A stretch of 64,000 nt of DNA from Rhodocyclaceae bacterium. GTDB taxonomy: Bacteria; Pseudomonadota; Gammaproteobacteria; Burkholderiales; Rhodocyclaceae. Below, piece by piece: positions 11,923-28,246 of the stretch; within the stretch, counting starts at the first letter, position 1; each line of letters opens with the position of its first letter. Location: contig JAVBYI010000001.1 of NCBI GenBank assembly GCA_030824115.1, positions 1 through 64,000 of the forward strand, written 5' to 3'. The translations under genes and the position numbers were made by a program. Under the pieces are notes generated by a model that made no database searches, was not told the DNA's origin, and worked only from the letters and a program-made list of their open reading frames with translations.

Positions 11923-13221
11923 TCAGCGGCTACCTCCATCGCGCAGGTGCAACCCGCGGCCGACCTGAATCACCGCCGTCTCGCCACGCAGAACCGCCAG
12001 CCCGCGCGCAAAGCTGCCGACGCCCGGCGACTGCACAAACACACAGGGCTTGCCGAGTTTCTTGCAAGCCTCCTTGAGGCGGTAGTAGGCCGCATGCGAA
12101 ACGCAACCGGCCTGACAGACCACGGCATCGGCCGCGCTTACCACCGCATCGATGCGGTGCAGGCTTTCTTCCTGGCCGCCATCGTGGTGCAGGAATTTCC
12201 CGCCTTGCGTTTCAACCAGACGGCGATAGCCATCGACCAGATTGGTCTTGCCGCCAATGCACAACACGCAACGTCCCGCCAGCGCCGCCTCGGCCGGACA
12301 GGTACGCCCGCAGCCGCCGGCACCTGACACGCCCTCGCAGCCTCCGCCGATACCCAAGGCCAGTTCCAGTGCCGTTTCGGCGGCCATCAGGCTGTCTTGT
12401 GCTTCGTTGAGTGCCATCGCCAGTGTTTCGGCACGGCGCACATTCGCGGCATTGCGTTCTTCCAAGGTCTCGATGCGCTGGCTCATCGCTTCGGCACGGC
12501 CGTAGAGATTGCCATAGTCACGCGCGGCCTTGCGCGCTTCGGCCAGTTCCAGTTCGCGATGACCGAGTAGCGCCGCCCGTTGCTCGGCGTCGGCCAGACG
12601 GCGCTGCAGATCGGCAATCGCCTTGTCTTTCTCGCGTTGCGCGACCGCCAGACCCATCTTGAAGGCAGCGGCCTCATTGCGCAGATGGTGGTTCTCCTGC
12701 TTCAACTGCTCCAGTTTGCGCAGGTCAGCACGCACTTCCGCACCCGTCTGATGCGACAGCATGTGCAGGTCGCCATACAGAATCCGGCTGCCCTCCTCGC
12801 TCATGTCGGCATGGCTCCACGCCGCCCACAGCGCGCCGGCAATATCGTTGCCGGCATCAAGCGCCTCCTGCCAGAGGTCCAGCACGGCTTCTTCACCGCG
12901 CATCCGGTTGAAACGCTGCACGGTGGCGGCGTAGCGCTTGTCGAAATAGCGCTGGATCTGCTCGGCCACCTCGGTGCGTGTATCGCAACTGCCGACGAAG
13001 GTCGTATGCAAGGTGTAGTCGGACATTTCACGCTGGTCGAAACCGGCGCGTGTCGCAATCTTGCGCATTTCGGCCACCGGCAGGCAGGTGCCGACCAGAG
13101 GGCAGTGCGAGCGATGCGAAATTTCCCAGAGTTTCTTGCGGCGGCGCCCGGCCACCGAAGGCAACGGAGCTTCGCTGTCGCCGAAGGCGGTTTGAAATAG
13201 CTGGGTCAGTGAGGTCGACAT
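11923..13221 (-). CDS. DUF2325 domain protein with central coiled coil
   Basis: This is a 432-residue cytoplasmic protein. The N-terminal half has RKKLWEISHRSHCPLVGTCL with two Cys and a His. The middle (about 170-290) is a long coiled coil (LEQLKQENHHLRNEAAAFK and following). A Cys-rich linker (GGGCEG, GGCGRTCP) leads to the C-terminal DUF2325 domain (RCVLCIGGKTNLVDGYRRL ... AVVCQAGCVSHAAYYRLK). The domain is widespread and uncharacterised. The Cys/His content suggests metal binding. The ATG at 13221 is preferred over the longer reading frame. Together with the next upstream gene it lies behind a Fur-like site. Confidence 0.75.
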   Translation of the reverse strand: MSTSLTQLFQTAFGDSEAPLPSVAGRRRKKLWEISHRSHCPLVGTCLPVAEMRKIATRAGFDQREMSDYTLHTTFVGSCDTRTEVAEQIQRYFDKRYAATVQRFNRMRGEEAVLDLWQEALDAGNDIAGALWAAWSHADMSEEGSRILYGDLHMLSHQTGAEVRADLRKLEQLKQENHHLRNEAAAFKMGLAVAQREKDKAIADLQRRLADAEQRAALLGHRELELAEARKAARDYGNLYGRAEAMSQRIETLEERNAANVRRAETLAMALNEAQDSLMAAETALELALGIGGGCEGVSGAGGCGRTCPAEAALAGRCVLCIGGKTNLVDGYRRLVETQGGKFLHHDGGQEESLHRIDAVVSAADAVVCQAGCVSHAAYYRLKEACKKLGKPCVFVQSPGVGSFARGLAVLRGETAVIQVGRGLHLRDGGSR

Positions 13222-13299
13222 GATAGGCAGTCTCCAATCGGATGTTGGGCTGGCTGCCTTGATCGCCGACGTGCGGCAAATCTGGGTGGCTGGCAAAAA

Positions 13300-13648: not shown

Positions 13649-13667
13649 GCAGATGATAATCATTCGC
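13649..13667. promoter_or_regulatory. Predicted Fur box in divergent spacer
   Basis: This stretch matches 14 of 19 positions of GATAATGATAATCATTATC, including an uninterrupted TGATAATCATT core. It sits between the minus-strand 13620 gene and the plus-strand HMA-like gene at 13703, and could repress both under iron sufficiency. Confidence 0.6.
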
Positions 13668-13702
13668 ATGTAGAATGTAAATTGTTATTTGGAGATTCCG
13701 CC

Positions 13703-14161
13703 ATGAACCTCATCGCTTCATCCATTCCGGGCCGCCTGCGCCTGCACCACGCAAGCTTGCGCAACCCACGCCATCTGGCGCAACTGGCCGCCGAGATCGG
13801 TGCCTGGCCGCCGGTACTATCCGTCGTCCCCAACGCCAGGGCAGGCAGCCTGCGGGTGCTCTATGATGCAGCGGCACTGCAAGAGGCGGATTGCATCAGC
13901 CGCTGCGAAACCGCCTTGCAGAAGTTGCTGCCCAGCAAAACATCACAGAAACCGGTCCGTACGCGACCAGGCAAGGCAAGCGGCCGGTCAAGCCCGTTCA
14001 GTCCGAACCGTCTGGCCAAACGTGGCATGCTGGCAAGCTTGGCGCTGTCGATGTTGCTCGCCACCACCGGCGCCAAAAAATGGCATGCCCTGACGGGCGT
14101 GTTCTTCCTGCATGCCCTCGGCGTCCATCTCTGGATCTACCGTCACCGGATTCTCAAGTAA
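13703..14161 (+). CDS. Small HMA2-like protein with C-terminal membrane segment
   Basis: This is a protein of about 152 residues. The N-terminal 75 residues (SSIPGRLRLHHASLRNPRH ... SVVPNARAGSLRVLYD) have the GRLRL...xxxVxxxxGSLRVxYD pattern of degenerate heavy-metal-associated domains lacking the CxxC pair. A basic linker follows, then a membrane segment near the C-terminus (LTGVFFLHALGVHLWIY). The start has GGAGATT upstream. The same type of domain recurs at 18393 and at the N-terminus of the ATPase at 15451. That makes this gene, which lies behind a Fur-like site, a likely outlying member of the ferrosome-like set. Confidence 0.65.
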   Translation: MNLIASSIPGRLRLHHASLRNPRHLAQLAAEIGAWPPVLSVVPNARAGSLRVLYDAAALQEADCISRCETALQKLLPSKTSQKPVRTRPGKASGRSSPFSPNRLAKRGMLASLALSMLLATTGAKKWHALTGVFFLHALGVHLWIYRHRILK

Positions 14162-14196: not shown

Positions 14197-15350
14197 TCAG
14201 GTCCCGGTGCCGTGGTCGATGGATAGCGGCTTTCCATACAACCAACCTTGCGCCAGGCCGATGCGGCAACCCGACATGACGGTATGCTGGGCCTCCGTTT
14301 CAACGCCTTCCGCCAACACGCGACAGCCGAGTTGCAGGAGGCGCTCGGCGGTGGCGGCAATCGCGGGCACATACGGCGAACCGCGTTCCGCATTGCGCAC
14401 AACGGTAATGCACAGCTTGACGATGTCCGGTCGCAAGACCCGCACGGTCTCCATGTCGGCAAAGCCGCAGCCTGTATCGTCCAGCGCAAGGCCTACACCG
14501 CGCGCGCGCAGGTCATCGACCGCATTCCGCAATTGGTCGGCGCCACCAAGGGGCAGGTGTTCGGTGAGTTCGAACATCAGCTTGTTGGAGCCGGCGAGCG
14601 GCAACAACTCGGCAGCCCGAAGCAAGGCATCGGGACCCAGATTGATGGTCAGGAAGGCGTCTTTGGGCAGCTTGCCGCGCGTCCGCTCCAAAGCCAGCTC
14701 GGCACACAGCAGTTCCATCTCAACCGTGCGGCCAGCGCTGTGGGCCGCTTCAAACAGATAATCCGGGCGCTCCAGCGGCGAATTATTCGGGCCGCGCGAC
14801 AGGGCTTCAAGCCCACCACGGTGCGGTCGCGCATGCGCACGATCGGTTGCAGCACGGTGCTGACCGAGCGGGCAGCCAGGATCGCCTCGATATCGCCCGT
14901 CGGTGCAGGAAACTCAGACAACCGGCGTTGCGGATCGGCGAGCTTTGCGTCCACCCAGGCAAATGGGCAGGTGCCGCCGGCGAGCGCGTCGGACGGCAGC
15001 GGCAGCACTTCCAGACTCAGGGGTATCCGCATGCCGGTACCCATGCCAAACACGGATAACAACAGATCATGGGCCAGCCGACGCCCTGCCCGCTCGATGG
15101 CAGCAAAGGTTTCGCTCGTATCGCGGGGCAGATCGCCCGAAAGAATGCGGAAGTGCGTAGTCCAGCGTGCCTCGGTATCGCGCCATTGACGATCAATGAT
15201 CGTGTGTTGCGCCAGCAGTCGGTCACACAACTCGTGCAGTGCAACGCCGAAATCGGTCATGGCACGGCCCACCGCCTCGTCGCCAAAAATGTCGGTCAGG
15301 CGCTGGTGTTGGGGAATGGTAATGGCAAGCGCGGCAACAGTTTCGGTCAT
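14197..15350 (-). pseudogene. EAL-domain protein split by a one-base frameshift
   Basis: Two overlapping frames together encode one protein of about 384 residues. The upstream frame (15350 to about 14810) has an N-terminal region and the start of an EAL domain (STVLQPIVRMRDRTVVGL). It then leaves frame. Restoring one base near 14807 gives LEALSRGPNNSPLERPDYLFEA in part, which continues as MELLCAELALERTRGKL in the downstream frame. Later motifs are DDTGCGF and AEGVETEAQ. The usual KID after the sixth strand is changed to VKLC, so catalysis is doubtful even in the restored protein. The shift is either a real inactivating mutation or a sequencing error. Confidence 0.75.
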
Positions 15351-15450: not shown

Positions 15451-17547
15451 TCAGTCTGCCAGCGCGCGCTGCCCGCCAGTCAACGCATTGAGCAGGATGG
15501 CGATGGTGGTGCCGTTGTGCGCCACCGAGGCGGCCACCGGCGTCAGTTGGCCCAGTGCGGCCGCACCCAGAATGGCGCTATTGACACCCACGGTCAGCTT
15601 GAAGGTTTTGTCGATGAGTTGCATCGTGGCATTGGCCAGCTGCTTGGCATCCGCCACGCGCTCGATGCCATCTTCCAGCAGGGCGATGTCCGAGGTCAGG
15701 CGCGCGATGTCGGCGCCCTGCTGCATGGCGATACCGACATGGGCACCAGCCAGCGCCGGGGCATCGTTGATGCCATCGCCGATGAAGGCGATCTTCGCGC
15801 CGGCGGCCTTCATTTGCGCAACCTGTGCCGCCTTCTGCTCGGGCAACAGTTCGGCATGGAAACCGTCAAGGCCCAGTTGTTCGGACAACTCGGCGGCACG
15901 TTCACGGTGATCACCGGTCAGCATGAGGATGCGTTGTGCACCGAGCTTGCGCAGCCGCGCCACCGTGGCGGCACTGGTGGCGCGCACCTCGTCCTTGAGC
16001 GCGATAACGCCGATCAGCCGGCCACCATAGCCGATGTAAAGCAGGGTCTTGCCCGCCCGGAACAGGCGGTCGATGCGCCGCTGCTGCGCGGCAGATATCA
16101 GCACGCCTTCGTCTTCCGCGACGAAGTGGCGCGAGCCGACGACAATGCGCTGGCCGTCAATGACGCTGGCGACACCATGCGCGGCAATGAACTCGACCTC
16201 CTTGTGATCGAAATGGCGGCCCTGATTCTTGCGCGCCGCCTCCACCACGGCCAGCGCAAGCGGATGGAAATAGTGCTCCTCCACCGAGGCGGCCAGATCG
16301 ATCAGATCCTTGGCCGTGTAGTGCGGATCGAAGGCAATGGAATCGGTGACGGCGAGCTTGCCGGTGGTCAGCGTGCCGGTCTTGTCGAACACAAAGGTAT
16401 CGGCTTCGGCGAGGCGCTCCAGCACGTCGGCGCCCTTGATCAGGATGCCCTGCTTGCCGGCGCGGAACATCGCCGACTTGAAGGCAACCGGGGTTGCAAG
16501 TTTCAGCGCACAGGAATAATCGGCCTGCAGCACGGCGGCGGCACGGCGCCAGTCGCCGGTAAGAAACCAGGCCGCACCGGCAAGGCCCAGCACCCCGGGT
16601 ACCAGCTTGTCGGCCAGCTTGGCCGCACCCAGTTGCGCATTACTCTTGGCCGTCAGCGACTGCTCGACATAATCGGCAATGCGTGCCGCCGCCGTCTTGC
16701 GGCCGACGTGCTCGGCATAGATGCGCAGGCGACCCTCTTCCACCACCGTGCCGGACAGCACTGCATCGCCGCGCGTGCGATTGACGGGCACACTCTCGCC
16801 GGTCATCGCGGCTTCGTTGACCAGCGCCTCGCCGCCCAGCACGGTGCCATCGACCGGAATCGTCGCCCCAGCGCCGACAATCACCGTCGCGCCAACGCCG
16901 ACATTTTCGGCCTCGATCTGCTGCTCGACGCCATCCACCTCGACCCAGACCAAGCCGGTATCGGGCCGCAGCAGTTTTTTCAACATGTCGTCCGAACGGC
17001 GGGCGATGGAGTTTTCCAGATACTCGCCGAGTGCCAGCATGAACACTGTCGTGTTGGCGGCCACATAGTCGCGGCTGCCGGTCGAAATGGCGACGGCCAG
17101 CGCTTCGAGCACATGCGAGTTGATGCCTGCCGAGAACAGGTCAGCCAGCGCCCCGCGATAGAGCGGCAGCGACGCCGCCAGCGTGGCCGGCATCTGCAAC
17201 CCAGCGGGCAGCCGGTTGGTGGCGAGCAGCAACGCCGCACTGGCGACCACAGTCGCCAGTTCCTTGTCGGCACCGTTCGGGCTGGCCGGCGTGGCTGATG
17301 GCAAGCTCAGGGCGAGAAGGGCATCCTGCAGGCGCACGCAATCTGTCGTCGCCGGATCAAACGCAATCACCAGCGAACGCGCCGCCGCGTTGAGGCGCAC
17401 CTCTTGAACCCCCGGCAGATTTTCGACCGCCCGCACAATCGGCCGCGCCTCGCAAGGCACCCCTCGTCGCAGACGAAACCGGAAGCGCACACGCGTCGGC
17501 AGGCAGTGCGCCGGCGCCAGCGTGGCGAAGATCGACCACTCGCTCAT
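15451..17547 (-). CDS. P1B-type metal ATPase resembling FezB (ferrosome ATPase)
   Basis: This is a 698-residue metal-transporting P-type ATPase. An N-terminal degenerate HMA2 domain without CxxC (about 15-75) leads to the membrane core. It has TGES at 249-252, SCALKLATP at 345-353 where other P1B pumps have CPC, the phosphorylation site DKTGT at 388-392, and GDGINDAPAL near 590. The absence of CPC, together with the small HMA and hydrophobic neighbours, matches the P1B-6 group that includes FezB of iron-storing ferrosomes. It probably moves iron into an internal membrane compartment. It lies last in the minus-strand train, 8 bp after the preceding gene. Metal specificity is inferred. Confidence 0.82.
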   Translation of the reverse strand: MSEWSIFATLAPAHCLPTRVRFRFRLRRGVPCEARPIVRAVENLPGVQEVRLNAAARSLVIAFDPATTDCVRLQDALLALSLPSATPASPNGADKELATVVASAALLLATNRLPAGLQMPATLAASLPLYRGALADLFSAGINSHVLEALAVAISTGSRDYVAANTTVFMLALGEYLENSIARRSDDMLKKLLRPDTGLVWVEVDGVEQQIEAENVGVGATVIVGAGATIPVDGTVLGGEALVNEAAMTGESVPVNRTRGDAVLSGTVVEEGRLRIYAEHVGRKTAAARIADYVEQSLTAKSNAQLGAAKLADKLVPGVLGLAGAAWFLTGDWRRAAAVLQADYSCALKLATPVAFKSAMFRAGKQGILIKGADVLERLAEADTFVFDKTGTLTTGKLAVTDSIAFDPHYTAKDLIDLAASVEEHYFHPLALAVVEAARKNQGRHFDHKEVEFIAAHGVASVIDGQRIVVGSRHFVAEDEGVLISAAQQRRIDRLFRAGKTLLYIGYGGRLIGVIALKDEVRATSAATVARLRKLGAQRILMLTGDHRERAAELSEQLGLDGFHAELLPEQKAAQVAQMKAAGAKIAFIGDGINDAPALAGAHVGIAMQQGADIARLTSDIALLEDGIERVADAKQLANATMQLIDKTFKLTVGVNSAILGAAALGQLTPVAASVAHNGTTIAILLNALTGGQRALAD

Positions 17548-17555
17548 CGCAACGA

Positions 17556-18062
17556 TCAGGCGCTGTGCTGCTCCGCAGCCATTTCGGCCTGAATGTCGGC
17601 CATCTGCTCCTTGATTTCCTCGAAGCCGCCGGCAACGCCCGTATAGAGCTGCATACCGGCGCGCATCAGCTTGGCGCGCATCGCTTCATCACCCAGCAGA
17701 TACACGGCCGCCGCACCAATCAGTGCACCGGTCAGAAACTGCTGGCCGGTACCGAGCGCAGCCAGACCGGTGGGATGACGTTGCCCCAGCAGGGCTTCGA
17801 GACTTGTCCGATCCAGACCCGCGAGGACGTTCTTGTTCTTGGCTTTTTTCTTCTTGCCCAATTTCAGCTCCTTGTTGAATAGCAGTTCTTCAATGCCCAC
17901 CGCCGTAGAGAGTGCCGTTCCGCCGAGCAGGACGGAACGCAACAGATCCTGGCCCGTGCGCTTGTCCTGCAACGCGGACAGCATGCCGGTGGCAATGGCG
18001 CCGCGCAAAAAGCTGGCGGACAGTTCACGCGGCAAGCCGCCTTTTTTCTTTGCCGGCTTCAT
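17556..18062 (-). CDS. Lys-rich membrane-associated protein of the ferrosome-like cluster
   Basis: This 168-residue protein has two hydrophobic stretches rich in Gly and Ala (FLRGAIATGMLSAL near 20 and FLTGALIGAAAVYLLGDEAM near 115) with small-residue packing motifs. A basic segment (KELKLGKKKKAKNKN) lies between them, and the tail is acidic and amphipathic (EEIKEQMADIQAEMAAEQ). No enzyme motif is visible. Its start overlaps the stop of the upstream gene by 4 bp, and the ATPase gene follows after 8 bp. Membrane-shaping or scaffold proteins of this kind are expected in ferrosome clusters, but assignment to a named Fez protein is not possible by eye. Confidence 0.6.
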   Translation of the reverse strand: MKPAKKKGGLPRELSASFLRGAIATGMLSALQDKRTGQDLLRSVLLGGTALSTAVGIEELLFNKELKLGKKKKAKNKNVLAGLDRTSLEALLGQRHPTGLAALGTGQQFLTGALIGAAAVYLLGDEAMRAKLMRAGMQLYTGVAGGFEEIKEQMADIQAEMAAEQHSA

Positions 18063-18367
18063 GCCACAGCTTTGACCGTTGTTTTCGGCTTGCGGGGTGC
18101 ACGCTTGGCAGCCGGTTTCGCGGCCGGCTTGGTCACGGTCTTTTTCGCCTTGTCCGGCTTTTTGACCGGCGCATCGCTGGCCGAGCGGCGCAGCAGGGCA
18201 AGGCCGGACTGTGCGGCGGAACGTACGCTGCTTTCCGCCGTACCGGCGGCACTACGTAGGCGCGACCCGGTTTCGTTCAGGGCATTTTTGGCACGCTCAC
18301 TGCGCAGCGTGGCAATGGCCGCCGCACCGACGGCCAGTCCGGCAATAAAGGGCAAGAGGGGGATCAT
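18059..18367 (-). CDS. Small membrane protein with Lys/Pro/Ala-rich tail
   Basis: This 102-residue protein starts with a membrane segment of the GxxxGxxA type (PLLPFIAGLAVGAAAIATL). An amphipathic stretch follows (SERAKNALNETGSRLRSAAG), then a strongly basic low-complexity tail rich in K, P and A, comparable to histone-H1-like or polyphosphate/PHA-granule-binding tails. A GGAGAAA ribosome site precedes the ATG. It overlaps the next gene by 4 bp (ATGA). A positively charged tail on a small membrane protein could bind polyanions such as phosphate-rich iron granules. That is inference. Confidence 0.6.
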   Translation of the reverse strand: MIPLLPFIAGLAVGAAAIATLRSERAKNALNETGSRLRSAAGTAESSVRSAAQSGLALLRRSASDAPVKKPDKAKKTVTKPAAKPAAKRAPRKPKTTVKAVA

Positions 18368-18392
18368 GACGTTTCTCCTTTGGACGGTGAAA

Positions 18393-18752
18393 TCAGGGGG
18401 TAGATGTGGCCGCGCTGGTCAGCAGGCCCAGCAAGGTGGCTGCGGCCGGTGTCTGTCTTGCGGCCAGCAAATCCGGCCAGGCCGCATCGGGAATGGTGGT
18501 GGCGTCGTAGGCGACAACACAGGAGCGGGCCAGCAGGTTGAGCGAAATATCCTGCACGCCGCGCACCGTGCCGAGCGCCTGCTTCAGCCGATCGCTGCCC
18601 AACGCCCGCAATGCCGGCTCGTCAAGCGCCGCCGGGTCAAGCTTGAGCCGCACCCGTCCGGAAATCTGATGGGCAATGCGCAAGTAGGGGGCAAATGTCG
18701 AAACGACTTGCCACGGATTGATGCTGGAATGGGTATTTGATTTGTCAGCCAT
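18393..18752 (-). CDS. HMA2-like domain protein, first gene of the ferrosome-like set
   Basis: This is a protein of about 119 residues. HQISGRVRLKLDPAAL and ALGTVRGVQDISLNLLARSCVVAYD form a heavy-metal-associated fold without the CxxC pair (one Cys in SCVVAYD). A hydrophobic C-terminus (AAATLLGLLTSAATS) follows. FezC-type proteins of ferrosome clusters are described as having HMA-like domains, so a similar role is plausible. The ATG at 18752 is preferred over the upstream ATG at 18791. It begins about 150 bp after hemP and is 25 bp before the next gene in the same direction. Confidence 0.6.
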   Translation of the reverse strand: MADKSNTHSSINPWQVVSTFAPYLRIAHQISGRVRLKLDPAALDEPALRALGSDRLKQALGTVRGVQDISLNLLARSCVVAYDATTIPDAAWPDLLAARQTPAAATLLGLLTSAATSTP

Positions 18753-18877
18753 GGTGCCATCAGGTGTCTTTCCCTGGCTGGCTGGCCGCAAGAGGGGGCG
18801 GCTGGCTGGCTACTGGATTGTTACAGCGAGTAATTTAGCATCCGCATCCAGCGCGATGTTGATCCAGATCAGCAAAA

Positions 18878-18897
18878 GTCGGCGCTGGCAAGACGGC
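18878..18897 (+). repeat. Dispersed 20-bp element, short form, copy 5
   Basis: GTCGGCGCTGGCAAGACGGC, two mismatches, 3 bp from the hemP stop codon, between hemP and the HMA2-like gene. Confidence 0.75.
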
Positions 18898-18900
18898 ACC

Positions 18901-19089
18901 TTACTTGGTCAGGATCAGTTTGCCGGCCTTGGTGCGTTGCAGGCGATAAGTCTCTCCGTTGTGCTCAATCCAGACCTCGTGGCTACCGGCAAACAGTTCG
19001 GCGCTGTCGAGTACCGGCAAGCGGTTGGCGGTTACGCCTTGATATTCCGCTAAAGGTTCGGACGCGGTTTTCTTGTCGTCTTCGCTCAA
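18901..19089 (-). CDS. hemP: Hemin uptake protein HemP/HmuP, copy 1
   Basis: This 62-residue protein has the HemP signature SAELFAGSHEVWIEHNGETYRL in part and ends in KLILTK, which is diagnostic of the family. HemP/HmuP proteins act as small regulators of haem and iron uptake genes in proteobacteria. The start codon appears to be TTG, overlapping the TGA of the upstream GGDEF gene (TTGA), so translation is probably coupled. It lies between the ferrous uptake genes and the ferrosome-like genes. A paralogue heads the same gene train at 25705. Confidence 0.88.
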   Translation of the reverse strand: MSEDDKKTASEPLAEYQGVTANRLPVLDSAELFAGSHEVWIEHNGETYRLQRTKAGKLILTK

Positions 19090-20120
19090 GACCGCACCCC
19101 CTTCCGCTCGCGCAATTCGGCATGGAATACGCGGCAGGCGCTACCACCGCAGCGCTTCATCCGGTACATGTTGATATCGGCCAGTTCGAGCAGCCCCTGT
19201 GCCGTGATGCTCATGCCGCAGAAGTAGGCCACGCCGATGCTGGCGCCGACATCGACCTGGGTGTTGGCAAGCTCGAACGGTGCATCGAAAGTCATCAGCA
19301 GCTTCTGCAAAATCGGCGCGCACTCGGCCGGGCCGTCGATGTGATTGAGGATGATGGCAAACTCGTCACCACCGACGCGCGCCACCGTGTCGATTTCGCG
19401 CAGACAGGCCTGCAGGCGTTGTGCCACTTGGCACAGGATTTCATCGCCGGCCAGGTGGCCCCAGGTGTCATTGACCGGCTTGAAGCGATCCAGATCGAGG
19501 CACAGCAGCGCACCGCCATGGCATTCGCGACGTGCCTGCAGCAGGGCACGCTCCAGCCGGTCGAGGAACAAGGTGCGGTTCGGCAGGCCGGTCAGCACAT
19601 CGTGGTGCGCCAGATGCCGCAGGCGATCCTCCTCGCGGATGCGCCGCGTGATTTCCTTCGAGGTGGCGACGAAGTGGGTAATTTCCCCGCTTACCATGCC
19701 CGCCCGAATCGGGCTGATAGTCTTGTGCTCGAAAAAGATTTCGCCATTCCTGCGACGGTTGGCGAACACGCCTTCAAAGACGCGGCCGGCCAGAATCGTG
19801 CGCCACAGTTCGCCGTAAAACGCCGGTTCATGCCGCCCTGACTTGAGAAAATTGAGCGGCTTACCGAGCACATCGGGCGCCTCATACCCGGTCACGCGTT
19901 CGAAGGCCGGATTGACGAATTCGACCTGACCGCGCACATCGGTAACGATCACGGCATCGCCGATCTGCGTCATGACCTGCCTGAAAACTTCTTGTCCGGG
20001 TTGTAAGCCTGACTGTTCCAGCGTGCCCGCTTTCATCAACATTGTCGTGCTCCCGTCGCTTCGTCGTCGAGGACACTGGCTGGGGCTGACCTGGCTGGTG
20101 TGGTTGAACTGCAAATTCAT
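19086..20120 (-). CDS. PAS-GGDEF diguanylate cyclase within the iron operon
   Basis: This is a protein of about 344 residues without obvious membrane segments. A PAS domain (about 50-165) contains QIGDAVIVTDVRGQVEFVN and TGYEAPDVLGKPLNFLKSG. A GGDEF domain follows with DALTGLPNRT-like HHDVLTGLPNRTLFLDRL and RVGGDEFAII near residue 250, and the catalytic Asp/Glu are present. It should make c-di-GMP. The ATG at 20120 comes 1 bp after the stop of the ferredoxin-like ftrD gene, and its own stop overlaps hemP. Its placement inside an iron uptake operon suggests iron-linked c-di-GMP signalling. An alternative start is 20042. Confidence 0.85.
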   Translation of the reverse strand: MNLQFNHTSQVSPSQCPRRRSDGSTTMLMKAGTLEQSGLQPGQEVFRQVMTQIGDAVIVTDVRGQVEFVNPAFERVTGYEAPDVLGKPLNFLKSGRHEPAFYGELWRTILAGRVFEGVFANRRRNGEIFFEHKTISPIRAGMVSGEITHFVATSKEITRRIREEDRLRHLAHHDVLTGLPNRTLFLDRLERALLQARRECHGGALLCLDLDRFKPVNDTWGHLAGDEILCQVAQRLQACLREIDTVARVGGDEFAIILNHIDGPAECAPILQKLLMTFDAPFELANTQVDVGASIGVAYFCGMSITAQGLLELADINMYRMKRCGGSACRVFHAELRERKGVRS

Positions 20121-20121
20121 G

Positions 20122-21573
20122 TCAAAGTCCAAAAATCGCCGGCCACCAGGCGACGCCGACCACCGCGCTGCCGACGATGCCGGGCAGCAACGGCAGCCAC
20201 CGGCGCGTGGCGGGCACGCCCTGACGGGCGAGGATGCGCTCGCCGAGCCAGATACTCCAGACCGCGCCGACAAGGAACATCAGCACCTTGCCGCCCTGCA
20301 CGCCGGCTTCGCCCAGCGGCGTCATGCCCAGCGGCTCGAACAACATGCTGCCGAGGCCGACGATCAGCGAGACCATCGCCACCGGCGCATATTGATAGCC
20401 AAGCTCGGTAAAGCGCTGGCGCAAATCGCCATCGCCGCCGCACAGGCCGGACAGGCGCGCGGCGGCGGCTGTCAGCCCGCCCAATACCACGGCCATTGCC
20501 AGCATGAAACCGCTCATGAATCCGACGATCATCACAAAATCCAGCCACCAGAAAACCTCCGCACGCTCGGGGTGTACGCTCATCAGCCAGGATGGGCCTG
20601 GCACCAGCAGCCACGACCAGTCGCGCTCGATGGCGAATTCGGCAGCGGCCTGACGCATCTGCTGGTACTGCGGCAGGATCAGCCAGAGGAAGCCACCGAG
20701 CGCGATGCCGGTGTCGAGGAAGAGCATCCAGGCTTCGGCGAAGTTGGCGCGGTGGCTGCGAATTTCTTCGATCTCGCTGCCAAGGCGGCGGAACACCATG
20801 CGCACGCTGCCCTTGGCACCGGGGTTGACGCAGCGGAAGCATTCGATGCAGTGGCGCGATTCGGCCTTGAAGGGCAGGTCGATCATGGTCGGGCAGGCGC
20901 CCTTGAGCGAATAGATGTCGCGGCCGGGCACTTTCACCTGCGGCTCGAAATTGACCGGGCCGAGGCGCGAATACAAACCGAGCACGCGACCAATCGGACA
21001 GAGGTGGCGGCACCACGCGCGCTTCTTGCGGCCGTAGAGGAAGCCGACCACTATTGCCAGCGCCATCGTACCGCCGAAGAGAATCGCCGCGCCGTCGGCG
21101 TGGTCGCGCACGCCGAGCGTCTGGCCGAGCAGGGTGACGAGGATGAAACTCACCGCCGGCGTGCCTTCCCAGCGCATCCAGCGCGGAATCTGCCATTGCA
21201 GCCCGACCTTGTTGGTCCACTCGGTCGCCGCGCCCATCGGGCAGAAGATGCCGCACCACGAACGCCCGGTGAAGATCACCGAGAGAAACACCAGCGGGAA
21301 CCACACGCCCCATAGCAGGTAGTTGGCGAAACTCGTGTAATGCGTCCACGGCGTCGCCGTCTCGGGCGGATCGGGCAGGAACAGCGGTACGGCGATGACC
21401 GCGAGAAAGAGCAGGAACATCGCCGCATGCAGCCAGACCAGCTTGTCGCGATGGCGGACGAAGAAAGCCTCGATGAATTCGGAAAGGCGCGAGGTTTGCG
21501 CGCCCTGCCGGATCGCATTCGACTTGACGATGTGGATGGGCTTGGCAACGACGACGGAGTTGGACTCAGACAT
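20122..21573 (-). CDS. ftrD: FtrD-like polyferredoxin membrane protein of ferrous iron uptake
   Basis: This 483-residue membrane protein has many hydrophobic helices and NapH/FixG-like Cys motifs: CGIFCPMG near 107, CRHLCPIG near 192, and CIECFRCVNPG near 252. These could hold iron-sulfur clusters. In FtrABCD systems (known from Bordetella and Brucella) the ferredoxin-like FtrD is proposed to accept or supply electrons during ferroxidase-coupled Fe(II) import through FtrC. It overlaps the upstream membrane-protein gene by 8 bp. Part of the C-terminal half (APVAMVSLIVGLGSMLFEPLG) is additional membrane sequence. Confidence 0.82.
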   Translation of the reverse strand: MSESNSVVVAKPIHIVKSNAIRQGAQTSRLSEFIEAFFVRHRDKLVWLHAAMFLLFLAVIAVPLFLPDPPETATPWTHYTSFANYLLWGVWFPLVFLSVIFTGRSWCGIFCPMGAATEWTNKVGLQWQIPRWMRWEGTPAVSFILVTLLGQTLGVRDHADGAAILFGGTMALAIVVGFLYGRKKRAWCRHLCPIGRVLGLYSRLGPVNFEPQVKVPGRDIYSLKGACPTMIDLPFKAESRHCIECFRCVNPGAKGSVRMVFRRLGSEIEEIRSHRANFAEAWMLFLDTGIALGGFLWLILPQYQQMRQAAAEFAIERDWSWLLVPGPSWLMSVHPERAEVFWWLDFVMIVGFMSGFMLAMAVVLGGLTAAAARLSGLCGGDGDLRQRFTELGYQYAPVAMVSLIVGLGSMLFEPLGMTPLGEAGVQGGKVLMFLVGAVWSIWLGERILARQGVPATRRWLPLLPGIVGSAVVGVAWWPAIFGL

Positions 21574-22453
21574 GGTAGCGGTTCGTCCAGTGGAAGAACA
21601 TCAGCCAGCCATGGATGGCGACCAGTGCCGGCGGAACCAGCCAGAGCAGGCTGGCCACCGCTTTACTTGCCGTCCTGCCAGCGCCGACATTTTCAATCGT
21701 GCGCCAACCCAGCCAGAGCGCACTGCCCACGACCAGCGTCAACAGCGCTGCACGCAGACCGGGCAACCAGTCGAGGTTCGCGCCTTCGCCGCGCAGGTAA
21801 AGAGCAGTATCCATCGTCAGGCCAAGGAACAAGGTCACGGCAGCCAGCGGCAGGAGTGCCTGTGCCAGTACGCGCCAGTCAAGCCGCACCAGCCGCGCCG
21901 CCAGCCGCACGGCAATGAAGGTAGCGCCGCCGGACAGCAGCGACCCGCCGCCGAGCCAGATCAGCAGGGCCGCGCCATCAATCCAGACGAACAGGTTTTC
22001 CGTGACTGTCCAGTGCTCGACCAGCCAAGTGCCCAGCGCCTGCCGCAGACTGACGAAGGCGGGGTTGAGCGTCCACTGAAACCAGGCCGGCGCCAGGCCG
22101 AGCAGGCCGAACGAAATCAGCAGCGCAGACGGCGTCGCGAGCGGACGTCGACTGCGCCTCAACAGTGCGGCGAGCGCGAGCACCGGCAGCAGCAGGCCCC
22201 AGAACAGGTATTTCGCCAGCAGCGCCAGCCGGTCATGCCACTGTGCGACGGTGGGTGCCTTGGTAAAGAGTGCCATGCGGGGTGGCTGACCTTCGATCGG
22301 CGTCATGCAGAAGTTGGGGTCGATGAAATCGGTTGCGCCCCAGCCATCGGAAAGCAGCCGGGCCTCCGGGTGCGGTGCAGGCAAAACAGCGGCCAGCACG
22401 ATCAGCAATCCGCACAGGACGGCCAGACTGCGGGAGGCAACATAGTGGGACAT
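21566..22453 (-). CDS. Membrane protein of the ftr operon, contains an in-frame repeat copy
   Basis: This 295-residue protein has an N-terminal hydrophobic signal or anchor and about six to seven membrane helices. A periplasmic segment after the first helix includes DFIDPNFCMTPIEGQPPRMALFTKAP. I recognise no enzyme family. It lies between the Ftr1 permease and the FtrD-like gene, with 10 bp before it and an 8-bp overlap after it, so it probably belongs to the uptake complex. Residues ENVGAGRTASK, between two helices near 265-270, are encoded by a copy of the dispersed repeat inserted without breaking the frame. Confidence 0.65.
   Translation of the reverse strand: MSHYVASRSLAVLCGLLIVLAAVLPAPHPEARLLSDGWGATDFIDPNFCMTPIEGQPPRMALFTKAPTVAQWHDRLALLAKYLFWGLLLPVLALAALLRRSRRPLATPSALLISFGLLGLAPAWFQWTLNPAFVSLRQALGTWLVEHWTVTENLFVWIDGAALLIWLGGGSLLSGGATFIAVRLAARLVRLDWRVLAQALLPLAAVTLFLGLTMDTALYLRGEGANLDWLPGLRAALLTLVVGSALWLGWRTIENVGAGRTASKAVASLLWLVPPALVAIHGWLMFFHWTNRYHV
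21669..21688 (-). repeat. Dispersed 20-bp element, short form, copy 6, inside a coding sequence
   Basis: Minus strand reads GTCGGCGCTGGCAGGACGGC, one mismatch, translated V-G-A-G-R-T-A in the membrane protein of the ftr operon. Confidence 0.8.
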
Positions 22454-22463
22454 GGCGACAACC

Positions 22464-23288
22464 TTAGCCTTGGGCCAGCGGCTTGCGGTCGCCCTGTTTC
22501 ATCTGCCAGAACGCATAGGCCCAGAACGTCAGGCTGGCCAGCAGCAGCATGCCTGCAGGCTGCGCGCGGTAGCCGACGAAATCGGCGAGGAAGCGGCCGA
22601 CGCCCTGGCCGTCGTTCAACACATCGGACATGTCCCAGACCGGGTCGAGCAGTGGCGGCAGCCATTCCATGGCGATCATGCGGTCGATGCCGTTGGCGAG
22701 CAACGCGTTGGCGATCAGCAGCAAGAGGATTTCGCTGACGCGGAACAGCGTACGGTAATTGAGGTAACGCGCCCCGCGCGCCACCAGCCAGGCGGTTGCC
22801 AGTGCCGCGCCAAAACCCGCAGAGGCTGCCAGCAGCATGTTCATCAATGTGGCGCCTTCGGCTTCAAGGCCGAGACCGTAGAGGAAGACCACGGTTTCCG
22901 CACCTTCGCGCGCCACCGCCAGTGCGGTGATAGCGCCGATACCTAGGGCGCCTGCACGCTTTTCCGCCTGCGCTTCGAGCTCGCGCTTCATTTCGCGGCC
23001 ATGGCGGTGCATCCACAGCACCATCTGCAAAATCAGCCCGGCGGCAACCAACACCATTGCGAGCTGGAATTTTTCCAGCGTTGCGCCGGCAAATTCGCTC
23101 TGGATCGCGTAGGTGGCATAACCGAGCGCCAGGGCCAAGGCCAGACCGGCACCCGCCCCGCCCCACACGCCACGCTTGAGCACAGCTTGCTCGGTAACGG
23201 GCTGGCGCACGATCCATGACAGCAATACGCCAATCACCAACATGGCTTCAAGGCTTTCGCGCCAGACGACGACAAGGGCGTTGAACAT
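22464..23288 (-). CDS. ftrC: FTR1-family high-affinity iron permease (FtrC/EfeU-like)
   Basis: This 274-residue membrane permease for iron has the two REXXE iron-binding motifs of the FTR1 family: RESLE at residues 10-14 and REGAE at 127-131, each at the start of a membrane helix. Seven helices are apparent. It works with the periplasmic P19-type FtrA, the cupredoxin FtrB and the ferredoxin-like FtrD encoded in the same transcript. The start matches the family (MFNALVVVWRESLE). It ends 10 bp before the next gene. Confidence 0.93.
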   Translation of the reverse strand: MFNALVVVWRESLEAMLVIGVLLSWIVRQPVTEQAVLKRGVWGGAGAGLALALALGYATYAIQSEFAGATLEKFQLAMVLVAAGLILQMVLWMHRHGREMKRELEAQAEKRAGALGIGAITALAVAREGAETVVFLYGLGLEAEGATLMNMLLAASAGFGAALATAWLVARGARYLNYRTLFRVSEILLLLIANALLANGIDRMIAMEWLPPLLDPVWDMSDVLNDGQGVGRFLADFVGYRAQPAGMLLLASLTFWAYAFWQMKQGDRKPLAQG

Positions 23289-23309
23289 GATGCTTCTTTC
23301 CGTAACGTT

Positions 23310-23663
23310 TTACTTGGCGACGACCCACATCTTGCCGGTGTCCATGTGGAACTCGTCGATGAATTCGTACTCGCCGGGCTTGAGCTTCGGCAGGACGACA
23401 AAGGAGGATGCGCCGGGTGCGAGCACCTTCTCGACGCGCATGGCGAGGTTCTCGAATTCGATCGGGCCTTTGCCCTGGTTCCTGACGATCAGCTTGATGC
23501 GCTGGCCGACAGGCACTTCGAGCCGCTCGGGGAACAGCCGGCCATCCTTGGCGATGACCTCGAAGGTCGGCAGTTCCTGGGCGTGACTGTCTGCCGCCCA
23601 GCCCAGCCCGAGCCACAGCGCAAAGATCAGGAGCAAATGGAACAGGTAGGACGGGGCAGGCAT
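23310..23663 (-). CDS. ftrB: Periplasmic cupredoxin-like protein FtrB
   Basis: This protein of about 117 residues has a signal peptide (LFHLLLIFALWLGLGWA) and a cupredoxin fold: EVIAKDGRLFPERLEVPVG, LIVRNQGKGPIEFENLAM, VLPKLKPGEYEFIDEFH. Blue-copper ligands are incomplete (no Cys, a Met/His-rich FHMDTGKMW tail). This is usual for the FtrB group, which is thought to help oxidise Fe(II) during transport. The ATG at 23663 has AGGGAG five bases upstream and is preferred over a GTG at 23669. It sits between the porin and the FTR1 permease gene. Confidence 0.82.
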   Translation of the reverse strand: MPAPSYLFHLLLIFALWLGLGWAADSHAQELPTFEVIAKDGRLFPERLEVPVGQRIKLIVRNQGKGPIEFENLAMRVEKVLAPGASSFVVLPKLKPGEYEFIDEFHMDTGKMWVVAK

Positions 23664-23672
23664 GAGCACTCC

Positions 23673-25073
23673 CTAGAAGCCAAGCTTGGCACGCACGCCG
23701 AGGACCTTGACGGTGCTCGCCGTGGCATCGCCACCGGGGTTGCGAATCCACTGGAAGTTGGGCGACAGTTCGATGCCGTCGTTCAGCTTGAAGCGGTAAT
23801 ACAGCTCGGTCTGCTTCTCGCTGCCCGAGGCCTGATAACCATAGTCAGCCGTGGCATCGCCGTCCGCATCGACCGTCAGCGAATCACGCTGGAAGTCTTT
23901 GCTGGTACGCAAACTGCCAAAGGCGATACCCAGCGAATCCGCCGAACGCCGCCATGCTGTCCCCTCCAGTTCGGCGCCCAGGGTCAGTGCGCGGTCAAAC
24001 AGCACGTAACCCGAGGTGTGACGGCCATAGCGGCCGAACAGCGTCAGGTCTTCCAGCACTTTCTGGTCGGCCGAAATGCCCCAGCCCTTGTTGCTCCGCT
24101 GCACGCCGTCGTAATTCTGTGCCCGGCTGTTGCTCCAGACGTAGGCGCGCACGGTTCCCGGCAGCATGTTTAGGCGGGTGTTCATCTCGGCCTGGCCAAT
24201 CACGAACGATGCGCGTGGCGAGCCCGAGAAATTGGCACCATTGTCCGAAGCGAAGGCGCCGAGCGACAAGCCCCACTCGCTGCCCCTTTCCGTCTCGTTC
24301 ACATATTGCAGGATCGCACCCGGCTGGAAGCCGTAAGCATCGGCGCCGATGTCGCCACCCGAATCAAGCAGCGGGTTATGCACAAAGGCGTTGTTCATGA
24401 ACTTGGCCGATTCGTCGTCCGCCGCCGCGTTCTGGTCGAAGAAACCGAAGGGATCGATCTTGCCGACCGTCAGATCCAGACGCTGCCCGGAATCCTTGCC
24501 ACCCAGCGGCATGGCGAGCTGATACCAAGCCTGGGCCAGGATGGCAAAGGAGTCGTCAGCACCGGCACCGGTCTGAAAGGCCGTCGTATTCGGCGTACTG
24601 GTATACGTCGTACGCAAGCCGACACCATTGCCCTGACCGAAGCGGAAGTGGGTGAAGAACTTTCCTTCGCTATCCCCCATCGAGCCAAACGGCATGCTCA
24701 CGGTTAAATCACCGCGATAGTTGGTGCGCGATTCATCCAGGCCACTTGCCGTCCCGCGAGCGCCGACTTTTTGTCCGACGGCAATGAGGCTGCCCTCGAC
24801 TTCGATGCCATCGGTTGCCTCGATCAGCTTGGTGACCGGGCCTTTGACGGCATCGACTTGCGCTTCGAGATGTTTGACGCGCGTCGCCAGCTCGGGTTCT
24901 TTTTCCGATAAACGCTCGGAAGCCAGCGCCTTTTCCAGTTCCTTGTTCTGCTTTTCCAGCATCTCAAGGCGCGCGGACAGACGCTTCAGTTCAGCCAGTA
25001 CCGCGTCGTCGGCTGCCATGGCGGGCATGGCGAAGCTTGCTGCCAGCGCGGCAGCGATCAGTTTCAGACGCAT
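23673..25073 (-). CDS. Outer-membrane porin with N-terminal coiled coil, in the ftr operon
   Basis: This protein of about 466 residues has a signal peptide (LIAAALAASFAMPAMA). A coiled coil of about 45 residues follows (LKRLSARLEMLEKQNKELEKAL), then a beta-barrel region with a terminal Phe (VLGVRAKLGF) typical of outer-membrane insertion. Barrel features (HFRFGQGNG, QAWYQLAMPLGG, IDPFGFFDQN, FQWIRNPGGD) resemble OprB-type porins. Its position between ftrA and ftrB suggests it admits iron or a chelate, since such a gene is not a standard part of ftrABCD. An in-frame repeat copy encodes KVGARGTASG just after the coiled coil, replacing part of the linker before the first barrel strands. Confidence 0.8.
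   Translation of the reverse strand: MRLKLIAAALAASFAMPAMAADDAVLAELKRLSARLEMLEKQNKELEKALASERLSEKEPELATRVKHLEAQVDAVKGPVTKLIEATDGIEVEGSLIAVGQKVGARGTASGLDESRTNYRGDLTVSMPFGSMGDSEGKFFTHFRFGQGNGVGLRTTYTSTPNTTAFQTGAGADDSFAILAQAWYQLAMPLGGKDSGQRLDLTVGKIDPFGFFDQNAAADDESAKFMNNAFVHNPLLDSGGDIGADAYGFQPGAILQYVNETERGSEWGLSLGAFASDNGANFSGSPRASFVIGQAEMNTRLNMLPGTVRAYVWSNSRAQNYDGVQRSNKGWGISADQKVLEDLTLFGRYGRHTSGYVLFDRALTLGAELEGTAWRRSADSLGIAFGSLRTSKDFQRDSLTVDADGDATADYGYQASGSEKQTELYYRFKLNDGIELSPNFQWIRNPGGDATASTVKVLGVRAKLGF
24748..24767 (-). repeat. Dispersed 20-bp element, short form, copy 7, inside the porin gene
   Basis: Minus strand GTCGGCGCTCGCGGGACGGC, one mismatch, translated V-G-A-R-G-T-A near residue 105 of the porin. 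Confidence 0.8.
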
Positions 25074-25075
25074 GA

Positions 25076-25624
25076 TCAATACCCGCCCTTCTTGCCGACG
25101 CCAGCGTAGGTGAATTCATACTCGGCTTCGACCGGCTTGAACCACGGACGGACGCCGGTGGCACGGTCGGTGTGGCGGCCGAACATGTTGCCGGCGGGGT
25201 TTTCCTTGGCGTTGGGCGGGTAGATGGTGAACTTGAGCTTGTACTTGCCCGGTCCCTTGAGCTTGACGTTGTCGCCGTAGTGCGGGCCGTCGGAAGCGAC
25301 CATCGGCATCATGTCGCCCTTGATGACGTCATTGGTGCCAACCTTGGTCAACTCGTACTTGACGAGAATGTGCGGCACCCAGAAGCCTTCGGGAATGCCG
25401 TTCGCATTGTTGGCCAGCGCGTGAATATCGGCTTCAAGGTGGATGTCGGACTCGGCCGCCTTGCGCATGTGGCCTTCCGGCTCCATTTCGATCGGCTGCA
25501 GATAGACGGCGGCGACTTCCATGCCGGCTAAATTCTGCGGAGAGCCAATCGGGTATTCGAGGGCGAAGGATGAAGTCGCCCACAGGGCGGCGACGGACAG
25601 ACAAAGACTACGGATAAAACGCAT
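25076..25624 (-). CDS. ftrA: P19-type periplasmic iron-binding protein FtrA
   Basis: This 182-residue exported protein belongs to the P19/Tp34 family of periplasmic iron transport proteins that bind copper and iron. It has a signal peptide (RFIRSLCLSVAALWATSSFA), EMEPEGHMRK and ESDIHLEADIHAL supplying Met/Glu/His ligands, WVPHILVKYEL, and GPHYGDN with a further His. GGAGG precedes the ATG at 25624, which is preferred over the longer frame. It is the first transport gene after hemP in the train and is followed two bases later by the porin. It would capture Fe(II) or Fe(III) and pass it to FtrB/FtrC. Confidence 0.92.
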   Translation of the reverse strand: MRFIRSLCLSVAALWATSSFALEYPIGSPQNLAGMEVAAVYLQPIEMEPEGHMRKAAESDIHLEADIHALANNANGIPEGFWVPHILVKYELTKVGTNDVIKGDMMPMVASDGPHYGDNVKLKGPGKYKLKFTIYPPNAKENPAGNMFGRHTDRATGVRPWFKPVEAEYEFTYAGVGKKGGY

Positions 25625-25704
25625 GGCAAACCTCCAAAGGTGGAAATGAAAAACACTTTGGCTGGCTTGCCGCGTCACTTGCTGCGGCTGGCTGGCTGGA
25701 AAGA

Positions 25705-25899
25705 CTACTTGGTCAGGATCAGGCGGTTCTGGCGGGTAAGGCGCAGGCGGTAAAGCTCGGCACCGTGAGCGATCACCACTTCACTGCTGTCGGCAAACAG
25801 GGTGCCGCTATTCAGCGGCTGGCTGCTACCCGAAGCGACGGCCATCTTGGCCTGAAATTTATTGAGTCCCAGCAGGGGATCTCTGCGCGTGGTAATCAT
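25705..25899 (-). CDS. hemP: Hemin uptake protein HemP/HmuP, copy 2
   Basis: This protein of about 64 residues has the family core SGTLFADSSEVVIAHGAELYRL in part and the ending RLILTK. An AGGAGG site is 8 bases before the ATG at 25899, and a GTG directly before it is an alternative. The gene is the first of the minus-strand iron train and sits right behind the Fur box at 25942, consistent with iron-repressed expression. Its C-terminal half is closely related to copy 1 at 18901, with a different N-terminal half. Confidence 0.88.
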   Translation of the reverse strand: MITTRRDPLLGLNKFQAKMAVASGSSQPLNSGTLFADSSEVVIAHGAELYRLRLTRQNRLILTK

Positions 25900-25941
25900 C
25901 ACAAATACCTCCTAGAAGATGCGAATAAATCTCATCATACA

Positions 25942-25956
25942 TGAGAATGTTTCTCA
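25942..25956. promoter_or_regulatory. Predicted Fur box heading the iron gene train
   Basis: TGAGAAT-G-TTTCTCA is a 7-1-7 inverted repeat with one mismatch, the form common in Fur-controlled proteobacterial promoters. A second overlapping inverted repeat, TCTCAT-N5-ATGAGA, covers 25930-25946, suggesting two overlapping Fur dimers. It lies about 40 bp upstream of the hemP start. Confidence 0.75.

Positions 25957-26056: not shown

Positions 26057-28246
<2,190 letters not shown>

Follow-up and report, generated by a model that had tools for sequence, protein, structure and literature searches.

Ferrous-import genes, two hemP genes and a ferrosome-like gene set in one train of a Rhodocyclaceae bacterium

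Gene content and layout of the train

The stretch of DNA analysed here (the window) comprises 64,000 nucleotides (nt) of contig JAVBYI010000001.1 from a Rhodocyclaceae bacterium (assembly GCA_030824115.1; 3.0 Mb in 24 contigs, 92% complete). Its minus strand carries, between positions 15451 and 25956, a train of thirteen genes in which an importer of the Ftr type for ferrous iron precedes a set resembling the fez genes of ferrosomes, with a hemP gene in front of each part (Table 1). The gene order is hemP1-ftrA-porin-ftrB-ftrC-membrane protein-ftrD-like-dgc-hemP2-HMA2-basic small protein-fused small protein-ATPase, dgc being the gene of a diguanylate cyclase. Assignment of the proteins to families by Pfam with its cut-offs, for which NCBIfam was also used, gave accepted matches to hemP (twice), Iron_transport, OprB, Cupredoxin_1, FTR1, Fer4_5, PAS with GGDEF, and E1-E2 ATPase; the proteins encoded at 21566, 18059 and 17556 had no Pfam family above the cut-off. 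Gene calls and Pfam thus bore out the order and the single strand described in an earlier reading made from the letters alone (the sequence-only reading). The mostly tiny gaps or overlaps claimed there were found as well, 10 of the 12 intergenic gaps being an overlap or at most 25 nt long, and so was the Fur box at 25942, with one mismatch. Across the whole window the Fur-box search returned three sites, as against a mean of 0.25 in shuffled sequence. The intergenic stretch with the Fur box is shared with a divergent katG-like gene (catalase-peroxidase, named by eye; 26087-28246, plus strand). Directly behind the ATPase gene, at the other end of the train, lies an EAL-type gene (14197-15350, minus strand) that seems frame-broken, its EAL part and its upstream part being in two overlapping frames.

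The only gaps longer than 25 nt, hemP1-ftrA (80 nt) and hemP2-HMA2 (148 nt), each lie directly behind a hemP gene. In the 148-nt gap, the leader of the fez half, an FNR-like box is followed by an extended -10-like sequence and by an element resembling a published HmuP-responsive element (HPRE). A simple scan, whose totals equal chance, found neither a terminator-like nor a sigma-70-type site in this gap. The Rfam scan of the window yielded no family at the gathering score, and two matches in the gap at a relaxed threshold were discarded as chance matches. The continuity of the single unit that the sequence-only reading had proposed is doubtful, since the 148-nt gap carries a promoter-like leader, which is also present ahead of the fez genes in some relatives. 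The halves of the train are perhaps two transcripts, and read-through from hemP1 may occur.

Table 1. Genes and control sequences of the train, from its upstream to its downstream end
Feature	Position	Strand	Basis or remark
Fur box TGAGAAACATTCTCA	25942..25956	-	1 mismatch; ahead of hemP1
Second, weaker Fur site	25920-25934	-	2 mismatches
hemP1, HemP/HmuP small regulator	25705..25902	-	Pfam hemP, 54.8 bits
HPRE-like element 1	25660..25693	-	between hemP1 and ftrA
ftrA, P19 type	25076..25624	-	Pfam Iron_transport; ATG at 25624
OprB-family porin	23673..25079	-	Pfam; in the P-gene position of FtrAPBCD
ftrB, single-domain cupredoxin	23310..23663	-	Pfam Cupredoxin_1; ATG at 23663
ftrC, FTR1 permease	22464..23288	-	Pfam FTR1; NCBIfam EfeU match below cut-off
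Membrane protein related to FtrD membrane parts	21566..22453	-	matches in or beside the ftrD places of relatives
ftrD-like polyferredoxin	20122..21573	-	Pfam Fer4_5, 47.7 bits
PAS-GGDEF diguanylate cyclase	19086..20120	-	Pfam; start at 20120 chosen by us
hemP2	18901..19089	-	Pfam hemP, 69.0 bits
FNR-like box CTGATCTGGATCAA	18859..18872	-	1 mismatch
Extended -10-like sequence TGCTAAATT	18832..18840	-	18 nt after the FNR-like box
HPRE-like element 2	18776..18807	-	in the leader of the fez half
Degenerate HMA-type protein (HMA_2-like), first fez gene	18393..18752	-	without CxxC; Pfam HMA_2 26.2 bits, cut-off 30 bits
Small protein with GxxxG in hydrophobic start and basic tail	18059..18367	-	sequence; homologs in the same slot in relatives
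Fusion of two small fez membrane proteins	17556..18062	-	two separate genes in most relatives inspected
FezB-like P1B-6-type ATPase	15451..17547	-	Pfam E1-E2 ATPase, motifs, tree

We infer the functions of the train parts throughout from sequence. Since P19, cupredoxin, FTR1 and ferredoxin genes stand in one run, the predicted products of the first half make up a ferrous importer of the FtrABCD type, to which an OprB-like porin is added. Both FtrABCD and a five-part FtrAPBCD, with an extra gene between A and B, are described in the parts of PMC11966278 on these systems, and a hemP gene ahead of ftr in Burkholderia in a passage of PMC7377471. The window resembles the Ftr importers of Brucella, Bordetella, Burkholderia and Rubrivivax in its order of P19, cupredoxin, FTR1 and polyferredoxin, in its extra gene between A and B, the porin being likened to the P component by position, and, with Burkholderia, in its hemP ahead of ftr. 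It differs from them in having a cyclase, a second hemP and fez genes behind, and in that the function of FtrD appears to be split between two genes, because the protein encoded at 21566, for which Pfam gives no Fe-S family, matches membrane parts of the FtrD-type proteins of relatives.

The ATPase and its small partners

The last gene encodes an ATPase with the motif DYSCALKLATP and with HNGTT in its last helix, so that the SCA in place of CPC of the sequence-only reading is indeed present. SCA in the M4 (TM6) motif is what we take to be the hallmark of P1B-6 ATPases. The phylogeny which that reading had suggested as a check placed the protein in an SCA clade, to which none of the copper, cadmium and SPC pumps in the tree belonged. 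In this tree of 66 sequences (a quick method with support by SH-aLRT, an approximate likelihood-ratio test, only; 18 sequences were left out, namely near-duplicates, two non-P1B paralogs of the window genome, one fragment and one CPCS row), a branch with an SH-aLRT of 99 separated 50 SCA-type ATPases from ten copper-type, one cadmium-type, one SPC, two CPG and two CPCATV sequences. The SCA side includes the ATPases of Solidesulfovibrio, presumably the current genus name of Desulfovibrio magneticus, and of clostridia. Outside it stand three copper-type paralogs of the window genome, plasmid copper, silver and cadmium pumps, and the SPC, CPG and CPCATV sequences; closest to the SCA group are the two CPCATV pumps, which come from Solidesulfovibrio. 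On this position, a copper or cadmium identity of the ATPase is rejected. By motif and by a tree built without P1B-5 or an experimentally characterised FezB, the ATPase is of the SCA (P1B-6/FezB-like) type. A table of PMC7558416 gives Fe(II) for P1B-6.

In the HMA-type protein, which has no CxxC, H28, G32, R33 and R35 are invariant among 16 aligned sequences. A confident structure model (pLDDT 86.4) was obtained for it; the fold search with this model returned nothing below E 0.001, with weak HMA-domain matches of a probability of at most 0.97. The fused protein at 17556 shows, in our test for likeness to FezA, 25% alignment identity to the small protein adjoining the ATPase in Solidesulfovibrio. 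In many relatives the set comprises an HMA-type protein, a ferritin-like protein, a basic small protein, two small membrane proteins and the ATPase; the set of the window is compact, with no ferritin-like gene and with the small membrane proteins fused. In its cluster anatomy the window agrees with Magnetospirillum and, in part, with Solidesulfovibrio. The window genome has one ferritin-family gene elsewhere (G000:C1:194112-194528), and at one locus of a relative (L127 in G237) some 3.2 kb of extra DNA lie between the match to a small fez protein and the ATPase gene.

In the passages of PMC12574912, PMC12016538 and PMC10979944 that deal with them, fez clusters have a FezB-type ferrous ATPase beside small membrane proteins and are repressed by Fur in Clostridioides difficile. 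The same passages describe FezC for D. magneticus and Desulfurispirillum. FezC may be dispensable in some ferrosome systems, since the account of C. difficile names only FezA and FezB as required.

The window set, in which four genes with two small proteins fused are coupled to Ftr and preceded by a leader with HPRE-like and FNR-like sequences, resembles the known fez clusters (D. magneticus, Rhodopseudomonas palustris RPA2333-2338, fezA/fezB of C. difficile) in its FezB-type ATPase beside small membrane proteins. Further points of likeness are the SCA motif and the P1B-6 label. As to the comparison of the small proteins with FezA and FezC by hidden Markov models, proposed in the sequence-only reading, none of the thirteen train proteins had a DUF4405/FezC match in Pfam, and the profile of the protein at 17556 was linked only weakly (E 0.019, probability 2.4%) to the clostridial neighbours of the ATPase. 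The resemblance of the last four genes to a ferrosome-type set, as seen there, is upheld by the ATPase clade and the cluster anatomy.

We consider it unlikely that the P1B-6-type ATPase and its small partners instead form no storage compartment but rid the cell of excess Fe(II), as an efflux valve that protects it from a powerful importer. For such a role speak P1B-5 Nia, which has been linked to nickel and iron detoxification, and the P1B-type PmtA, an Fe(II)/Co(II) exporter, and a valve beside FeoAB or Ftr would also explain the recurring neighbourhood described below. The ATPase, however, groups with the SCA ATPases of Solidesulfovibrio and clostridia, the recurring small membrane and HMA-type partners would presumably be unneeded by a plain pump, and the Fur box at the start of the train fits expression at low rather than at high iron.

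Near the train, a further Fur box (13654-13668, one mismatch) precedes the gene of a small HMA-plus-membrane protein (13703-14161, plus strand), homologs of which adjoin fez genes in many relatives, and a DUF2325-like protein (11971-13251, minus strand) is 37% identical to a fez-linked one, DUF2325 genes being frequent fez neighbours.

Importers beside fez genes in relatives

The sequence-only reading had taken a storage organelle directly behind an import system, with a c-di-GMP enzyme and a porin in one unit, to be a new arrangement as far as known to it. This was not sustained: Ftr and fez in this order occur in five other genomes of the family sample, and FeoB stands beside fez elsewhere, so that uniqueness of the arrangement is rejected. 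Among 249 genomes of the family sample, 27 carried the ATPase, 67 an FTR1 permease (E 1e-25) and 14 both, a co-occurrence above chance (Fisher p 0.003, no phylogenetic correction). Ftr and fez lie within 10 kb on one strand in six of the 14 (window, G053, G106, G142, G163 and G196); in the remaining eight the two systems are far apart or on separate contigs. A FeoB match stands between ftrD and fez in G106 and G196, the latter also with a small feoA-like gene (named by eye), and a DUF2325 gene in G163. The diguanylate cyclase, whose GGDEF and RxxD sites are both intact in the window, is missing from the clusters of all five Ftr-fez relatives; it is a window-specific addition outside the recurring gene set.

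Outside the family the ATPase is thinly spread: it was found in seven of 399 genomes of the order sample (E 1e-150) and in one of 369 of the class sample (E 1e-120), the window being counted in each. Of the 33 loci in a named collection, several of which are short and one of which (L040) is not SCA-type, 16 had a FeoB match in the same orientation as the ATPase and no more than 10 kb from it, two had another FTR1 type, and none had the Ftr type of the window. FeoB adjoins fez-type ATPases in Thauera, Magnetospirillum, Oligella and a clostridial genome, where a ferrous importer thus likewise stands beside fez-type genes, with Feo in place of the Ftr of the window. Two loci (L100 and L102) have longer trains, ftrA-porin-ftrB-FTR1-ftrD-feoB-HMA-small proteins-ATPase, with two ferrous importers in one run with fez. 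The window genome has another FeoB-like gene elsewhere (G000:C5:48599-50236), 30% identical to the fez-linked type.

In a tree with sequences from 34 of the 67 FTR1 genomes, the FTR1 proteins of the six linked loci are not monophyletic (approximately unbiased test, p 2.8e-51), and well-supported branches force three or more label changes. The ATPase tree, for its part, shows that the window clusters with the Feo-linked locus L008 and not with the other Ftr-linked loci. These trees would mean that importers were joined to fez either more than once, or once with frequent loss. The ferrosome passages of PMC10979944, PMC12574912, PMC12004955 and PMC12016538 contain no mention of the pairing, which the two defining ferrosome papers may describe. 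The parts of the window train are of known kinds, and their pairing recurs.

The recurrence bears on the view that an Ftr operon and a fez operon are adjacent by chance, functionally unrelated and driven by separate promoters. The promoter-like leader in the 148-nt gap speaks for this view, as do the eight of 14 sampled genomes that keep both systems apart or on different contigs. We nevertheless think it improbable: in six of the 14, which belong to three lineages of the ATPase tree, the systems are no more than 10 kb apart, the genomes measuring about 3-4.5 Mb, fez follows ftr in the other five without such a leader (in three with feoB or DUF2325 between), and the same type of element stands in both halves of the window.

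HemP, HPRE-like elements and proposed control of both halves

The elements in the two long gaps have the common form AGCCAGCCGC-N-GCGGC-N-AGCCAGCC, and exact matches to AGCCAGCC-N4..30-AGCCAGCC number two in the whole assembly, both in the train. Two hemP genes were found in the assembly, each directly ahead of one such element. The two HemP proteins differ from each other, as do the two element loops. The elements lie 35 nt (ftrA) and 23 nt (HMA-type gene) from the start codon and match the published HPRE of Chromobacterium violaceum chuR, CCCGCAAGCCAGCCGACAGCCAGCCAGCG, which according to a passage of PMC9131926 sits between chuP (a hemP) and chuR at -26 nt from the start. Direct repeats of AGCCAGCC ahead of an iron gene, together with a HemP protein, are what defines a HemP/HmuP-HPRE unit, and the window has both. 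The same source gives ChuP as heme-binding and as needed for full chuR and vbuA mRNA, and PMC9241770, in the part concerned, describes HPREs as direct repeats in alpha- and betaproteobacteria. As in chuP-chuR of C. violaceum and shmR of Ensifer, hemP is followed by AGCCAGCC repeats shortly ahead of the start of the target. The window differs in its two hemP genes, its two elements and its putative targets, a ferrous importer and a storage cluster and not a heme receptor; the receptors that HemP has so far been known to regulate are those for heme and siderophores.

The leaders of fez genes were searched over 300 nt ahead of the HMA-type gene at 45 loci including the window (from an initial 50, four duplicates and one locus lacking that gene were removed). 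Of these 45 leaders, 11 had an HPRE that differed at no more than one of 16 positions (0.04% of dinucleotide shuffles), the window and four Thauera-type relatives among them, and 15 had one with at most two mismatches (1.1% of shuffles). The element pattern occurred 110 times in 67 genomes selected from the family and the order, as against 28 for a reversed control, many of the matches probably being coding; as read from the lists, an element lay within 5 kb of ftr in nine of the 34 of these genomes with an ftr match. From the pattern matches, 26 loci with 27 elements were picked by hand, favouring nearby iron genes or hairpin-like spacers, so that their numbers are not frequencies. Here 26 of the 27 elements lie 19-37 nt ahead of the start codon chosen by script, and one lies at 100 nt. 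The genes behind them encode, among others, FtrA, TonB receptors, TonB, an extracytoplasmic function (ECF) sigma factor, ferritin and a DUF2325 protein (ten proteins were tested with Pfam, eight of them with an accepted family, and the other names were given by eye). At L190 and L223 the gene that starts about 30 nt behind the element belongs to the ferritin family and possibly encodes a second storage protein under HemP, and in G159 (L212) an element stands in front of a DUF2325 gene.

The AGCCAGCC elements might also be leftovers of a hemP duplication that placed the Ftr block between two copies of hemP plus flank, and not HemP sites at all. Both window elements do follow a hemP, and the proteins and loops have diverged as old copies would. 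In L008 and L014, however, such an element precedes hma2 without a hemP directly in front, and others precede the genes of TonB receptors, of ferritin and of a sigma factor; we regard this origin as very unlikely.

The FNR-like box, with at most one mismatch, occurs in six of the 45 fez leaders, the window being one, as against 0.3% of shuffles. Its distance to TGnTA is exactly 18 nt in the window, L014, L026 and L035 and 20 nt in L012, whereas L110, L124, L028 and L017 have no TGnTA within 41 nt behind the box. Neither HPRE nor FNR-like box is found ahead of the fez part in the five Ftr-fez relatives, so that their fez genes probably rely on an upstream promoter; the window arrangement, by comparison, looks like a hybrid.

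On balance we regard it as somewhat probable, from these sequence features, that the train is a module for both import and storage which is controlled by Fur and in whose two halves HemP acts. At low iron, Fur would leave the promoter and HemP would be made, which would act on the two HPREs in the mRNA and thereby raise both the Ftr importer and the fez products. Following the model in the Ftr literature, Ftr would oxidise ferrous iron in the periplasm and carry it inward, and small membrane compartments, to whose construction the HMA-type and basic small proteins would contribute, would be filled with Fe(II) by the FezB-like ATPase. A second promoter of FNR type ahead of the fez half would let anoxia alone raise storage. 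The two halves would share regulation, not necessarily one transcript. More tentatively, HemP might through the HPREs be a common switch for ferrous import and the building of storage compartments at the mRNA level, to which the FNR-type promoter might add anaerobic control of storage. Neither a HemP-HPRE link to storage nor an FNR-like fez leader is described in the relevant passages of PMC9131926, PMC9241770 and PMC11442138.

Several points weigh against this model. The likeness to fez of D. magneticus, C. difficile and R. palustris is by description only. In 30 of the 45 fez leaders there is no HPRE within two mismatches, and in the five Ftr-fez relatives both ftrA and hma2 lack one in front. 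Two of these five, G163 and G196, yielded no hemP; G196 does have HPRE-like sites, and only about 0.5 kb of its ftr contig precedes ftrA, a region in which relatives carry TonB-type genes and, further up, hemP. By count, FNR-like boxes in the window are at chance (2 found, 1.27 expected), and the nearest fez relative (L008 of G187) has the HPRE but no FNR-like box. Moreover, the level at which HemP acts is disputed, since the accounts differ: in the passages concerned, ChuP of C. violaceum showed no binding to the DNA (PMC9131926), while HemP is called a transcriptional activator in Burkholderia multivorans (PMC9241770).

Because the same kind of small regulator gene and the same control sequence precede each half of the train, the arrangement suggests that cells may adjust the uptake of iron jointly with its storage. 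Research on ferrosomes is still young; if it is true that HemP controls fez genes via HPREs, a regulator of heme uptake would also set iron storage. The recurrent joining of fez with Ftr or FeoAB argues that ferrous import feeds the compartment.

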